Assembly (NCBI RefSeq): GCF_903469665.1
Contig: NZ_CAGKLC010000001.1
Coordinates: forward strand, 75,852-139,851
Reading direction: 5' to 3'
Length of the DNA: 64,000 bases
Source of the DNA: Flavobacterium sp. UGB4466
GTDB lineage: Bacteria > Bacteroidota > Bacteroidia > Flavobacteriales > Flavobacteriaceae
The position numbers were made by a program, and so were the translations under genes. Each line of letters begins with the position of its first letter. Positions within the stretch are counted from its first letter, which is position 1. Below are positions 55,952-64,000 of the stretch, piece by piece. The notes beneath the pieces are model-generated. The model saw only the letters and a program-made list of their open reading frames with translations. It did not search any database and had not been told where the DNA came from.

Positions 55952-56308
55952 ATGGCGTTAGTTAGTGATTTGACCACCAAAGTATTATTTGAAACCGAAA
56001 AAGGATATAGTTATCAATGTGATTTGACTAATAGTATAATCATCAATTTTGTTGATACAGTGTCAAGTTACAAAATTCATGATTTTTTGATTTTTCAAAG
56101 AAAGGTCAATAGCGTTGACATTCTTAATATGCTTTATGACTTATCTGATCGGTCAGACGCACAATTGATTGAAACCACCAAAAGAAATTTTTCCAGAAAT
56201 CTTACTATCTGTGAAATAGTGCAGTTAAGAGATTTATTAAACGGAACTAAATTTACCCTCACTTTACATTCTATGCTTTGTAATATTGTAAACGTAGAGC
56301 TTATTTAG
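55952..56308 (+). CDS. Unrecognised protein, 118 aa
   Basis: No known domain recognised. Soluble, alpha/beta, with two-thirds charged residues and two cysteines (YQCDLTN, SMLCNIVN, also NLTICEIV). It contains a beta start, a KIHDFLIFQRKVNSVDILNMLYDLSD helix and a C-terminal LRDLLNGTKFTLTLHSML. It lies 90 bases upstream of ferritin in the same direction; no terminator is seen between them, so it may share its transcript. No function is proposed. Confidence 0.65.
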   Translation: MALVSDLTTKVLFETEKGYSYQCDLTNSIIINFVDTVSSYKIHDFLIFQRKVNSVDILNMLYDLSDRSDAQLIETTKRNFSRNLTICEIVQLRDLLNGTKFTLTLHSMLCNIVNVELI

Positions 56309-56397: not shown

Positions 56398-56919
56398 ATG
56401 AAAGATTTATTAAGAACACGTACTTCATTAGTTGAAAGTGTAGAAAATATATTAAACTTACAAGCAAAATTAGAAAGTGACGCTTCTAACAAATATTTAG
56501 CTATGGCAGCATGGTTAGATAGAAATGGTTATGCTAATACAGCATCTTATTTGTACAAACAAGCCGAGGAAGAGAGAGAGCATTTCCTAAAAGTTTTCAA
56601 ATATATTACAGATATGGGAGGGATTGCCGTTACGCCGTCTGTTCCGGAAGTGCAGCAGGAATTTGCTTCTTTGAGAGAAGTATTTGAAATTGCTTTGCAG
56701 AATGAAATTGCAGTTACACAAGCAGTGAATAAAGTAATTGCAAAATGTAGAGCTGAAAATGACTATGCTACAGAAGATTTTATGATGTGGTATGTTGCTG
56801 AGCAGAGAGAAGAAGAGAAAAACGCAAGAAGAGCTTTAGAGCTTTTTGAGTTGATTGATGAAAGCGAAGCTGCCGGAAAATTCCAGTTGGATGTGCAAAT
56901 CGCAAAAATCGGAGAGTAA
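56398..56919 (+). CDS. ftnA: Non-haem ferritin
   Basis: Cytoplasmic iron-storage protein, 173 aa, self-assembling to a 24-mer. Four-helix bundle with the di-iron ferroxidase ligands: Glu in LESDASNKYLAMAAW near 22, the ExxH of EEEREHFLKVF near 57, Glu in LQNEIAVTQAV near 101 and Gln/Glu in MWYVAEQREEEK near 135. Iron-poor or oxidative-stress control is expected from the family but no Fur box was identified. Confidence 0.95.
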   Translation: MKDLLRTRTSLVESVENILNLQAKLESDASNKYLAMAAWLDRNGYANTASYLYKQAEEEREHFLKVFKYITDMGGIAVTPSVPEVQQEFASLREVFEIALQNEIAVTQAVNKVIAKCRAENDYATEDFMMWYVAEQREEEKNARRALELFELIDESEAAGKFQLDVQIAKIGE

Positions 56920-59054: not shown

Positions 59055-60401
59055 ATGCATCACTCAGGTTTCAAATTAATAACAATCAAAGAAGTCAAAT
59101 CGCAATATCCATTTTTAATCGATCGGGAAGGTTTCGATTATTTTGAGGAATGGGAAGAGGAGGATTTCTTTTTGATTGCATTCGAAAGTGTAAATTTTGA
59201 GGCCAATTTTTATTTCGATCTTTATGAGAATAAAGAGAAAAAATGGCTTGCCGGAGTATTAAATCTTCCCTTAAAAGAAATGGAAGATCTTAGAATTGAA
59301 GGAGTCCTAATAAATGGAAATCTTTCTGTAAACGGAACGATTATAAATGCCGAAGGCGATTACGGACCTTATGTTTTTATTAAAGGAAATGTGAGTTGTC
59401 AAAGCATGTTGTTGGGAGGTTCGTATGTCGAAATTGAAGGCAACGTTACTGCGAAAGAAGTAGTAATGACTTCCTATAATCACGGTAATTTTAAATGTTC
59501 GGGCTGTATTGAAGCTCCGGTTTTTATAGTCGAAGATCATTATACCACATTCTCAAGCCGTAATAACAATTTGTTCTACTATAATGATAAAACAGACGAC
59601 ATGGATCCTGAAAATGAATCGGAATATGATGAGGACAGTGACGAAGAAGTTATTTCAGCCGAATTGCGAAAACACCTTAATAATTCTCTAATAACCACTT
59701 TTGAAGAACTCAAAAGAGAGTTGGAGGAGGGTGAGTTAGTTTTAAAAGAAAGTAATCCGTTGCCAAAAAATCAGGAATACTGGCAAAAGAGAGTTTTGTC
59801 CAATTACAGAGATTTAAAAATAGTTCCGCTCGAGTTTAAAACAGCAGCATTGTGCGAGATGGCATTAAATATCACCCATCATGCGTTACCGTTTGTGGAG
59901 GAAGATTTTATTACGTCTGAAATTTGCGAGAAATTAGTCGGTAAGGATGGTTTTGCACTTCAGGTAATTCTCGATCAATTTATAACCGAAGAACTTTGTT
60001 GGAAAGCGGCTGAGAGCGGAACATTGGTTTCACTGATTCCGGGGCGTTTTTATTCGGAAGAGTTAATTATAACGACTTTTAAAAAAGGCAAACACGAACC
60101 GAATATTAATGATGTTCCTGCTGAATTTATCACTGATAGTTTACTTGAAGCATATGTGAAAATTGGTAAAGGATTGTGGCTCGACAAGATTTGCAAAGAA
60201 AACGGAAAGGATAAATTATCTATTTTAAAAAGTGTAATTGATTCCGGAATACAGCATCTTGACGCTATTTTTGGGAATCACTTTAGTGTCGAAGTTGTTG
60301 ATTATGCGGCATCTCTTTATAATAATGAAGAAAATAAATCGAAATGGGATAACTATGTTCAAAAATATAAAGTTAAATTCGGGCGTCTTGGATTAAACTA
60401 A
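59055..60401 (+). CDS. Beta-helix/helical-repeat protein of unknown function
   Basis: A 448-aa cytoplasmic protein. The start at 59055 (MHHSGFKLITIKEVKSQ) is chosen over an ATG 14 codons upstream by the following sequence character. Part 1, to about 190: strands with Gly turns (GVLINGNLSVNGTIINAEG; VFIKGNVSCQSMLLGGSYVEIEGNVTAKEVVM), like a bactofilin-type beta-helix. A very acidic linker follows near 195 (DDMDPENESEYDEDSDEE). Part 2, to the end: helical repeats of the type FITSEICEKLVGKDG and FITEELCWKAAESGTL, resembling DUF4116-like repeats. This layout is seen in proteins next to polymorphic toxins, possibly immunity-related, but no toxin is nearby. Confidence 0.68.
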   Translation: MHHSGFKLITIKEVKSQYPFLIDREGFDYFEEWEEEDFFLIAFESVNFEANFYFDLYENKEKKWLAGVLNLPLKEMEDLRIEGVLINGNLSVNGTIINAEGDYGPYVFIKGNVSCQSMLLGGSYVEIEGNVTAKEVVMTSYNHGNFKCSGCIEAPVFIVEDHYTTFSSRNNNLFYYNDKTDDMDPENESEYDEDSDEEVISAELRKHLNNSLITTFEELKRELEEGELVLKESNPLPKNQEYWQKRVLSNYRDLKIVPLEFKTAALCEMALNITHHALPFVEEDFITSEICEKLVGKDGFALQVILDQFITEELCWKAAESGTLVSLIPGRFYSEELIITTFKKGKHEPNINDVPAEFITDSLLEAYVKIGKGLWLDKICKENGKDKLSILKSVIDSGIQHLDAIFGNHFSVEVVDYAASLYNNEENKSKWDNYVQKYKVKFGRLGLN

Positions 60402-61479: not shown

Positions 61480-61917
61480 ATGGAATCAAATATTAAAATC
61501 AGAAAAGTTGAAAAACAGGATTTAGATTTTGTTTACCAAGCGATAAAAGAGCTTGAAAATGAAATTTTAGATTTTGAAGTGTTTAGCCAGATATTTGATG
61601 AAAACATTTCAAATAAAAAGAATCTCTATCTAATTGCCGAAAACGAAACAGAAGGGTTAGGTTTTATTAGTTTTCATACCCAAAATCTTTTGCATCATTG
61701 CGGATTGGTAGGTGAAATCCAGGAGTTCTTTATTCACCAGAAACATCGCGGGCAAGGGGTTGGCAGGTTATTAATAAATGAGGTTTTAAATTTTGCAGAA
61801 CAGCATAATTTAAAAAGTATTGAAGTGACCACCAATAAAAGACGTGTAGAGAATGTTGCCATTTACGAGAATCTTGGGTTTGCTTTAAGTCATAATAAGT
61901 TTACGATTTATAAGTAA
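61480..61917 (+). CDS. GNAT-family N-acetyltransferase
   Basis: A 145-aa acetyltransferase. Acetyl-CoA site EFFIHQKHRGQGVGRLLINEVL near 84-105 (R/Q-x-x-G-x-G/A) and late helix/strand KRRVENVAIYENLGFALSHN near 125. Substrate unknown. Six bases after the UBA-like gene; a terminator follows. Confidence 0.9.
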   Translation: MESNIKIRKVEKQDLDFVYQAIKELENEILDFEVFSQIFDENISNKKNLYLIAENETEGLGFISFHTQNLLHHCGLVGEIQEFFIHQKHRGQGVGRLLINEVLNFAEQHNLKSIEVTTNKRRVENVAIYENLGFALSHNKFTIYK

Positions 61918-61949
61918 ACTTTGCAGCGATGGGAAGATTCAACATAAAA

Positions 61950-61978
61950 AAAACTGCTGTTTTGTAGGCAGCAGTTTT
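61950..61978. terminator. Bidirectional terminator between the GNAT and the leader peptide gene
   Basis: Arms AAAACTGCTG and CAGCAGTTTT, nine-base loop, flanked by A and T runs. Confidence 0.88.
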
Positions 61979-62002: not shown

Positions 62003-62194
62003 TTAATGTGAGTATTCCATACAGATACTGCCTACTGCCGTTTTGTATAAAATCCAACCACATCTGTTTTGTCCGATAGAAGGATAGATTTCTTCGCCGT
62101 TACACATCGGATATGGTACACATTCTATAGTACTGGTACCACCGGCATTAATTGATTTTAATTCTTCTTTTGTTAATTTTTCGAAATTTTTCAT
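62003..62194 (-). CDS. Bacteriocin-like / RiPP precursor peptide with double-glycine leader
   Basis: A 63-aa peptide. The leader MKNFEKLTKEELKSINAGG is of the double-glycine type: two charged-hydrophobic helical heptads and a GG at 18-19, as processed by peptidase-containing ABC transporters. The 44-residue core that would be released (TSTIECVPYPMCNGEE onward) holds four cysteines (CVPYPMC, RCGW, ICME), so two disulfides or thioether rings are possible. Bacteroidetes genomes carry many such peptides, annotated bacteriocin-like or natural-product precursor; few have a known activity. No exporter or modification enzyme lies in the window. A transcript terminator follows. Confidence 0.75.
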   Translation of the reverse strand: MKNFEKLTKEELKSINAGGTSTIECVPYPMCNGEEIYPSIGQNRCGWILYKTAVGSICMEYSH

Positions 62195-62377
62195 AAATGG
62201 TTTTTTGTTTTTTGATTTTCCTACTCTATAAGTTTTTCGGATACCACTTTGATAAAAATATAAATTATTTTTAAATAAATACTTACAAAATAAAGTTTTT
62301 GATTCGGAGTGATTTTTACTTGATGGAAGTTGGGTAAAAGTTTAATATTGTAAATTAATAATTTGCCTAAAGAAAAA
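62195..62377. promoter_or_regulatory. Divergent region between the peptide gene and the LytTR gene
   Basis: A 183-base AT-rich spacer that must contain promoters for both genes. No exact TAnnTTTG box is seen for either; LytTR-type direct repeats were searched for by eye and none was convincing. Confidence 0.3.
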
Positions 62378-63118
62378 ATGCAGCAATTAAATACGTCCAT
62401 AAAACATCATTTGATAGTTGGTGCACTAATTAGTGTTTGGCTATTTGTTTTTGCTTTCATCATTAGACCATTTGACGACGGAACGATCAATTTTAAGTCA
62501 TGGCTTTTAATTAGTTTAGGCTTTAGTGTTTTGGCATTTTTATGTTATTCAATTGTCGGATTTATTCAAAAGAGTATTTACAAGAAGATATCCAAATGGA
62601 ATGTTAGTTTAGAAATCGCAAGTATAGTTTTCTTTTATTTGATTTATCTTTTTGGAACTTACACCTATTATAAAAGCCCTATTTTAAACGGAGGATATGA
62701 TTTTACAGCATTTTTCTCGATTATTTTTATCAAAGTCACCCTGATTTTAACTCCTGTAATTGTTTTGGCAAGACGTTATTTGCTTAAACTGATTCCGATA
62801 AAAGAGGATTTTTTGATTGTTAAAGGAGAAAACAAATTAGATGTTTTAAAAATTAAAAAAGCAGATTTGGTTTGTGTTTCGAATGCACAAAATTATGTCG
62901 AGATCTTTTATTTGGAAAACAATCAGCTTCGGACAAAATTGATTCGGTCTTCACTCAAAAAAGTACAGGAAGATTTTGATTTTTTGCTTCAAATTCATCG
63001 TTCGCATTTAATAAATCCATTGCATTTTAAATCCTGGAGGAATTCAAATACGATCCTTCTTACTCAAATAGAACTTCCGGTATCCAAAAATTATAAAGCA
63101 AGTCTTTTGACTTTGTAA
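62378..63118 (+). CDS. Membrane-anchored LytTR-family transcription regulator
   Basis: A 246-aa regulator. ATG at 62378 (MQQLNTSIKHHLIVGALI) is preferred; a TTG five codons upstream is possible. Four membrane helices: about 16-32, 44-66, 84-100 and 118-136 (FSIIFIKVTLILTPVIVLA). A cytoplasmic LytTR DNA-binding domain follows: DLVCVSNAQNYVEIFYLENNQLRTKLIRSSLKKVQ and QIHRSHLINPLHFKSW. There is no receiver domain, so the membrane part probably senses the signal. A membrane protein gene follows after 101 bases. Divergent from the peptide gene. Confidence 0.87.
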   Translation: MQQLNTSIKHHLIVGALISVWLFVFAFIIRPFDDGTINFKSWLLISLGFSVLAFLCYSIVGFIQKSIYKKISKWNVSLEIASIVFFYLIYLFGTYTYYKSPILNGGYDFTAFFSIIFIKVTLILTPVIVLARRYLLKLIPIKEDFLIVKGENKLDVLKIKKADLVCVSNAQNYVEIFYLENNQLRTKLIRSSLKKVQEDFDFLLQIHRSHLINPLHFKSWRNSNTILLTQIELPVSKNYKASLLTL

Positions 63119-63219: not shown

Positions 63220-63780
63220 ATGAAAACAAAACACATTTGCCTGCTTGGATTGCTATTTTTTTTGATCAGTTATCTCTTCTTTTCTAAGATTCTGCCAAAC
63301 TTTCAAAAACCAATCGATTTTGCGCATTGGTTTAATTTAGTTGGAGCCTGTTTGTTGTTGTCATTTAATGATGTGTTTCCGAAATGCAAGCTAAATTTGA
63401 TTGCATCAGTATTAACCACTTTTGGTGTTATTGCCCACATTGGCCTTTGCACGATTGATTTTATGATGTGGAGTTTCGGGAATAACGATCTCGCCAGAGA
63501 GGCATTGAGCAAGCAGATTAGTGATACACCATCTATTCTTTATCCTTTTGTGATTGTTGGGCCCTCTTTGCTTTTTGTTGGTTTGGCGATTCATGCATTT
63601 ACTTTTATAAAAACGGAAACCGTAAAATCTTTGATGGTAATTGTTGGTTCGGCTGCTGTGGGATTTTCATTTTTTGCTTTGAAAAATGGCGTTTTGATGC
63701 TTTTGAGTTGTTTGGTTTTTGTTTTAGGATTAGGTTTGCTTCTTTATAGAAAAGAAAATCCAGAAACAAATGGAGTATAA
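63220..63780 (+). CDS. Unrecognised integral membrane protein, 186 aa
   Basis: Helices at about 6-22, 35-52, 62-80, 103-128, 137-150 and 158-176, so five to six spans. No known family recognised. Short loops with a few Asp, Lys and Asn. It lies downstream of the LytTR regulator and may be its partner, or target. Confidence 0.72.
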   Translation: MKTKHICLLGLLFFLISYLFFSKILPNFQKPIDFAHWFNLVGACLLLSFNDVFPKCKLNLIASVLTTFGVIAHIGLCTIDFMMWSFGNNDLAREALSKQISDTPSILYPFVIVGPSLLFVGLAIHAFTFIKTETVKSLMVIVGSAAVGFSFFALKNGVLMLLSCLVFVLGLGLLLYRKENPETNGV

Positions 63781-63856
63781 GGCAATTGGGAAAGAGTTTT
63801 CAGGTAGATTAGAACTTCTGTTTTAATTCATATCTTCGCTTTCATCTTGTGTGAAA

Positions 63857-64000
63857 ATGAGGATAGAAAAAGCAAATACAACCGATAGCGAAATTCTAAC
63901 ACAAATAACCAAAAAGTCAAAAGCTTATTGGGGATATTCAGCAGAACAAATTCAAAAGTGGGAGGTGAATCTTACTATTTCTCCAGATTATATAAGAGAA
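63857..64000 (+). CDS. GNAT-family protein, N-terminus only
   Basis: Open to the window edge, 48 codons from ATG 63857 (MRIEKANTTDSEILTQITKKSKAYWGYSAEQI). This is the usual N-terminus of a GNAT acetyltransferase with the KSKAYWGYS motif of that branch. A GTG at 63851 is an alternative start. Confidence 0.7.
   Translation, partial: MRIEKANTTDSEILTQITKKSKAYWGYSAEQIQKWEVNLTISPDYIRE

Follow-up and report, generated by a model that had tools for sequence, protein, structure and literature searches.

A four-cysteine peptide gene of Flavobacterium behind a candidate DUF805b control RNA and beside a LytTR gene

The stretch of Flavobacterium sp. UGB4466 DNA analysed here (the window, 64,000 nucleotides) carries on its minus strand, at 62003-62194, a genuine precursor gene that is conserved in some relatives and lies behind a DUF805b RNA motif. 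We read it as the gene of a secreted, disulfide-bonded and bacteriocin-like peptide that would be controlled through this RNA and exported by a distant C39/VKOR system, with the adjoining LytTR gene mostly a positional neighbour, and we give this account as a whole a probability of about 0.62. Transcription would start from the gene's own promoter just upstream of the DUF805b motif, which would then fold as a pseudoknot in the peptide mRNA and control translation, its input being a ligand, a protein or a state common to other DUF805b genes. The precursor would pass to a distant cluster encoding a VKOR-thioredoxin-C39-like oxidase, a C39 ABC transporter and an HlyD protein, where cleavage after Ala17-Gly18 and the formation of two disulfides would precede its release. 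The source genome is a draft assembly of 5.34 Mb in 306 contigs.

The precursor gene and its relatives

The peptide gene, its leader and its terminator lie as follows.

62003..62194, minus strand: precursor gene, 63 aa, with the leader at residues 1-18 and a core with four Cys at residues 19-63
62141..62194, minus strand: double-glycine-type leader, residues 1-18, matched by NF047798 over 1-18; Gly18 invariant in 18 members
61946..61978, minus strand: terminator hairpin and U-run, stem AAAACUGCUG/CAGCAGUUUU, lying where the acetyltransferase and peptide genes converge

The open reading frame begins with ATG and encodes cysteines at residues 25, 31, 45 and 58. The 63-aa product with a GG-type leader and four cysteines that was described in a sequence-only reading of this DNA is thus present as claimed, and its leader passes NCBIfam NF047798 (leader_Chryseo, 'bacteriocin-like protein'), aligning through residues 1-18 to all 18 model positions at 29.4 bits against a cut-off of 23.5. 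All 18 profile members of the peptide family match this model at E<=1. NF047798 models the leader alone and says nothing on the four-Cys core, which falls below every Pfam and NCBIfam cut-off; a similar leader is found in the CCPGW family putative bacteriocin model (NF047792), whose weak match of 15.2 bits misses its cut-off of 80.

Double-glycine leaders exported by C39 transporters have hydrophobic residues at positions -15, -12, -7 and -4 and small residues at -2 and -1, a rule that the peptide satisfies with F4, L7, L12, I15, A17 and G18. Cleavage is predicted after Ala17-Gly18, both because Gly18 is invariant among the 18 members while Gly19 is not and because no other register sets Phe, Leu, Leu and Ile at the four hydrophobic positions. 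The mature peptide is therefore expected to run from residue 19 and to have 45 aa. This displaces the start after Gly19 (at residue 20) proposed earlier; of the 44-residue, four-cysteine core described with it, the cysteines stand and the length does not.

The strong terminator noted earlier downstream of the gene is borne out by a perfect 10-bp stem followed by a U-run, 3' of the peptide stop codon, and the 76-nt stretch that holds it folds with a z of -4.87 against shuffles. In an AlphaFold2 model built from 18 alignment rows (mean pLDDT 72.1), residues 31-60 reach a mean of 87-90 and form two short strands, and the leader is poorly determined. The product is probably a small, secreted, four-Cys peptide.

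The sequence-only reading depended on the peptide occurring beyond this strain, and it does: full-length relatives (E<1e-25 with the profile of 18 members) are present in 17 of 398 Flavobacterium genomes. At E<=0.01, with at most 15 candidates scored per genome, the same search returned 54 genomes, and the remaining 37, mostly leader-only or chance matches, were left out of the count. Searched with the single sequence, 199 genomes from 42 genera gave six matches, all of them in Flavobacterium. The relatives are 53-74% identical with invariant Cys, and invariance across the 18 members extends to all four Cys, Trp47, Cys-Met-Glu-Tyr at 58-61 and Gly18. Pooled over 325 pairs of 26 peptide copies, dN/dS is 0.13 for the leader and 0.48 for the core; these 26 copies, also used for the 5' alignment below, retain L030, whose CDS equals that of G199. 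The family has two core subtypes, which stand in tandem in 5 of the 21 loci read. A mobile origin was considered and dropped, as no relatives were found in plasmids or viral contigs (388 pattern stretches, none confirmed).

The DUF805b element and the genes behind it

The 5' leader of the peptide gene holds the following features.

62218..62250, minus strand: DUF805b RNA motif (RF02914, typed cis-regulatory), 43.0 bits against a gathering score of 35.6
62249-62246 (AAGU) with 62233-62230 (ACUU), minus strand: DUF805b stem 1
62241-62239 (UCC) with 62221-62219 (GGA), minus strand: proposed pseudoknot stem of DUF805b, from covariation
62260..62288, minus strand: probable promoter in a conserved block, TTG at 62288-62286, 18 nt, then TAATTTAT at 62267-62260

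The motif is a full 35-position match to Rfam RF02914 (DUF805b RNA, clan CL00115), ends about 24-25 nt before the peptide start codon and is the only gathering-level Rfam match in the 64-kb window. Matches to RsaOG and Afu_190 did not reach their gathering scores and were set aside. An alignment of the 5' regions of the 26 peptide copies showed little conservation in the intergenic DNA outside two parts, a promoter-like box and a block of about 50 nt that precedes the start codon. In 13 of the 17 genomes, the element at the peptide attains the gathering score; among the four that fall short, G102, G262 and G416 keep an exact 23-nt core of the element, with one stem-1 mismatch in G262 and in G416, and G359 has lost this core at both of its peptide copies. 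The core is accordingly exact in 16/17 genomes and in 22 of the 26 copies. We propose the DUF805b motif as a candidate conserved control feature of the peptide gene, one that the earlier reading of its regulation had overlooked.

The -7 box at the peptide reads TAATTTAT in the window and TAATTTGT in many relatives. Flavobacterial -7 boxes are given as TAnnTTTG and TAnnTTGY in PMC9723704, which maps the TAnnTTGY class in F. psychrophilum; by its letters, the relatives' box resembles that class, but the window has TAATTTAT there. The promoter-like box occurs in 21/26 peptide copies and is missing from five, each the second member of a tandem pair.

In the source genome, RF02914 matches at 7 places over its cut-off and at 14 with E<=0.011, and these 14 elements, out of 27 in the genome listing, were compared for covariation with their letters anchored on GAAAA and GAGTA. 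Their letters covary in the manner of an H-type pseudoknot. For stem 1, 51 of 56 cells are paired where shuffling gives a mean of 38.8; this count is biased in that the covariance model that found the elements scores stem 1. The NCC/GGN knot stem pairs in 38 of 42 cells (shuffle mean 30.7). The cmscan structure line of RF02914 holds stem 1 alone, so the knot is an additional test, and the counts obtained here support this second, knotted stem. Moreover, the model is biased towards stem 1 and towards the inner letters of the knot, which makes the outer knot pair the freest test; it is Watson-Crick in 10/14 elements, as G-C, C-G and U-A (P 5e-5 by shuffling). Single-sequence folding of the window's leader, by a method that does not model pseudoknots, is unremarkable (z 0.40).

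RF02914 matches at E<=1e-7 were found in 72 of 80 further-examined genomes (71 over the cut-off) and in none of 14 control genomes; the 80 were hand-picked, as 17 with the peptide, 40 with LytTR and 23 others, of which 14 had a pattern match, so that 72/80 is no base rate. The pattern search was built on the peptide's own element, and its reversed control matched 3/398 genomes. Gathering was reached at 15 of the 20 pattern loci tested; some matches with three mismatches look like chance (L170, L178 and L182). The L078 match and register duplicates were left out.

The genes behind the elements examined encode DUF805 (PF05656, 72.8 bits), DUF1843, DUF1842 and DUF4234 proteins, and others that appear by eye to be lipoprotein-like or secreted. 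RF02914 is named after DUF805, of which one gene was found behind these elements, and here it precedes a leader-bearing peptide. The 29 best-scoring new loci, taken one per genome, comprise 10 before leader-bearing peptides, 17 before other ORFs and two at which no ORF was found; nine of the 29 belong to a CYCR peptide family. This second orphan GG peptide family, ending CCYCR and with a DUF805b-like element upstream, was also read at L163, L165, L184, L186 and L188 (a set that overlaps the 29), where it is flanked by the same two genes, one of 373 aa and one of 381 aa that is cut in L188. At another locus (L247, G460:C1:672500-678500), seven short lanthipeptide-type genes lie on one strand, five of them in close tandem, and each has a DUF805b element 20-odd nt before its start. 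Six of the seven elements pass gathering, and the one gene scanned passes NF038153 (class I lanthipeptide, 33.3 against 22 bits).

Within the source genome, 13 of the 14 elements precede genes other than leader-bearing peptides. Four DUF805b-like elements at G000:C61:15448-29838 stand before DUF1842, DUF1843 and two genes that had no Pfam match or were unscanned. The GG peptides of the genome's own exporter cluster (on contig C20) and an orphan on C26 have no credible RF02914 match. The orphan GG-leader Cys peptide of 66 aa at L037:6271-6471, in the same genome, is without a DUF805b match. Our literature search found no paper on DUF805 RNAs, although the survey that described them lay outside it and may note the link to such peptides, and among the matches listed there was nothing on the peptide or its RNA. 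DUF805 is absent from the available part of PMC2864571.

The LytTR gene and control of the peptide

On the other side of the intergenic region and beyond the terminator, the locus comprises the following genes.

62378..63118, plus strand: LytTR regulator with a hydrophobic N-terminal half, Pfam LytTR 31.1 bits, cut-off 22.6
61480..61917, plus strand: GNAT acetyltransferase
63220..63780, plus strand: 186-aa hydrophobic protein, 3' of LytTR in many relatives

The divergent membrane LytTR gene described earlier is there, its four hydrophobic segments being recognised by eye only. Beyond it, downstream of the 186-aa gene, 63851-64000 is the start of a second acetyltransferase, which by eye resembles one that stands directly before LytTR in 11 relatives. 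The 448-aa protein at 59055-60401, with a weak Bactofilin-like stretch below the cut-off, is near the locus in many relatives, and the LytTR gene at L121 (G096) is split and in part duplicated. LytTR mutations in F. johnsoniae are recorded in the accessible portion of a coevolution study (PMC10197871), whose gene was not matched to the window's LytTR; the corresponding portion of PMC7440613 holds nothing informative for the LytTR/peptide question.

LytTR orthologs (E<=1e-40) occur in 54 of 398 Flavobacterium genomes, 40 of which lack the peptide. Of these 40, 21 have a co-directional acetyltransferase gene immediately before LytTR, within 40 nt: in 10 it is the window's acetyltransferase, ending <=40 nt before LytTR and overlapping it as TAATG in at least four, and in 11 it is a second acetyltransferase that ends 14-20 nt before. 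Other genes or gaps precede LytTR in the remaining 19. Where the peptide is present, LytTR is instead preceded by an intergenic region of about 180-350 bp. Among the 17 peptide genomes, 14 have LytTR, each time divergent from and adjoining the peptide gene, and three have no intact LytTR and yet intact peptides: the gene is absent from G008, just part of the next gene is left in G199, and G367 keeps a 63-residue LytTR remnant. Adjacency of the pair, which the sequence-only reading proposed to check in related genomes, holds in those 14 genomes, and joint conservation does not.

On a tree of 57 LytTR genes (the 54 orthologs with L024, L028 and L033), peptide presence requires 9 changes (gain or loss) against a shuffled mean of 14.9, with 0/500 shuffles as low. 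Fewer changes than with shuffled labels mean that peptide presence partly follows kinship. Well-supported branches force at least five of the nine, and some sister pairs are mixed, as in G296/G313 and G474/L024. From this mixed distribution and the neighbouring genes, it follows that the peptide comes and goes at the site without matching the fate of LytTR.

Two other accounts of control have to be weighed against an RNA element. LytTR regulators of Gram-positive bacteria control bacteriocins via peptide sensing, and the present locus is like theirs in that a membrane LytTR protein adjoins a GG-leader peptide; unlike theirs, it has no linked exporter that we found, and the pairing is often lost. 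A dedicated regulator or receptor of the peptide would account for the divergent, adjoining position in the 14 genomes, for the intergenic region that accompanies the peptide and for the clustering of peptide presence on the tree, though kinship alone gives the last of these. It agrees poorly with the 40 peptide-less LytTR genomes, 21 of them with a GNAT gene closely upstream, with the forced changes and mixed sister pairs of the tree, and with G008, G199 and G367, where the peptide and the 23-nt core are intact next to no intact LytTR. We consider this role improbable; a LytTR binding site between the two genes, read by eye only, was likewise rejected as the cause of the conservation because the 23-nt core is unchanged in those three genomes. 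The conserved block might otherwise be a DNA site for a transcription factor, as its place in first copies, beside the promoter-like box, would allow, but compensatory changes in both stems, the exact core in 2/5 second tandem copies that have no promoter box (0/5), and the nearly equal distance from element to start codon in the seven G460 genes make this very improbable.

An RNA element in the peptide mRNA remains our preferred account, and LytTR is largely a positional neighbour of the peptide. The proposal that LytTR is its dedicated sensor or controller is not upheld, with LytTR in 54 genomes and the peptide in 17, and with the peptide and its 5' leader surviving the loss of an intact LytTR in 3/17. 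As regulator and peptide are not kept together, their distribution supports a regulatory pair weakly, and LytTR may have some effect on the divergent peptide promoter.

Export and the putative role of the peptide

As stated in the sequence-only reading, no exporter or modifier lies nearby: Pfam identified none in the 16 flanking ORFs scanned, which extend to 10 kb beyond the window's end and leave out two neighbours (55952-56308 and 56398-56919), and the window's contig has no C39 match. The same 16 ORFs include no recognised linked enzyme for a modified RiPP of the lanthipeptide or rSAM type. Elsewhere in the genome, three C39 ABC genes score over the cut-off, one with an in-frame TAA, which answers positively the search for a C39 exporter proposed earlier and supports the dependence of export on a distant system. 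The own exporter cluster, on contig C20, encodes an AraC-type regulator, short GG peptides, a VKOR-thioredoxin-C39-like oxidase, a Cys GG peptide, a C39 ABC transporter and HlyD, and thus resembles the Bacteroidota C39 ABC exporters that are accompanied by a VKOR-thioredoxin oxidase. The four conserved Cys fit an exporter with its own disulfide-forming enzyme, and this distant cluster is, we infer, the probable exporter of the peptide.

Orthologs of the cluster are present in 17/17 peptide genomes (91-100% identity for the C39 ABC protein, 76-100% for VKOR), and no C39 gene outside this cluster was found at E<=1e-15 in G102, G237 or G359. Both key genes are also present in 34 of the 40 peptide-less LytTR genomes; with the cluster nearly as usual in the absence of the peptide, co-occurrence (17/17 against 34/40) is consistent with this exporter yet not discriminating, and it fails to single out this peptide. 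Any C39 gene at all is found in 17/17 peptide genomes, in 36/40 peptide-less LytTR genomes and in 158/381 of all peptide-less genomes, the last and larger contrast being confounded by kinship and genome size.

A further locus (L249, G030:C8:95500-106000) has two Cys GG peptides, each behind a DUF805b element. Their co-directional run also holds a DUF6734 protein (one of two scanned), a VKOR-thioredoxin-C39-like protein, a C39 ABC transporter and an ORF that is HlyD-like by eye. This locus unites the DUF805b RNA and the C39/VKOR export route, unlike the window, whose peptide is unlinked to the C39/VKOR cluster of its genome.

Two rival views concern what becomes of the peptide. The interrupted C39 ABC gene (L034:11095-13287, G000:C20) reads one in-frame TAA in its peptidase domain and is open in the same-species genome G452, so that the peptide might not be matured in this strain at all. 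Two further C39 ABC genes are open, however, and the TAA may be a sequence error, given a draft assembly of 306 contigs; we hold failed maturation to be rather unlikely. A somewhat stronger, though still unlikely, contender is that the peptide is a signal (pheromone) instead of a bacteriocin. Streptococci export GG-leader peptides as signals, and the flanking ORFs scanned include no recognised immunity gene; a 45-residue core with four Cys is nevertheless closer to an effector than to a short linear pheromone, the peptide has no linked receptor, and paralogs of two subtypes whose core evolves faster than the leader speak for an effector as well. Antagonism of related bacteria is the likeliest of the putative roles of this peptide.

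Bacteroidota are rich in orphan GG-leader peptides for which neither a mode of control nor a function is known. We hypothesize, tentatively and at somewhat less than even odds, that DUF805b is a common translational switch in Flavobacterium that acts on leader-bearing peptides destined for export and on further proteins that are secreted or belong to the envelope, in which a tiny H-type pseudoknot on each cistron would set the amount of product in response to one shared signal. If this is true, scattered orphan precursors would be co-ordinated in the absence of a linked regulator while sharing one exporter and oxidase. More generally, the occurrence of DUF805b before several unrelated precursor families predicts a set of co-regulated peptides, and these peptides may in turn hint at what the RNA senses.
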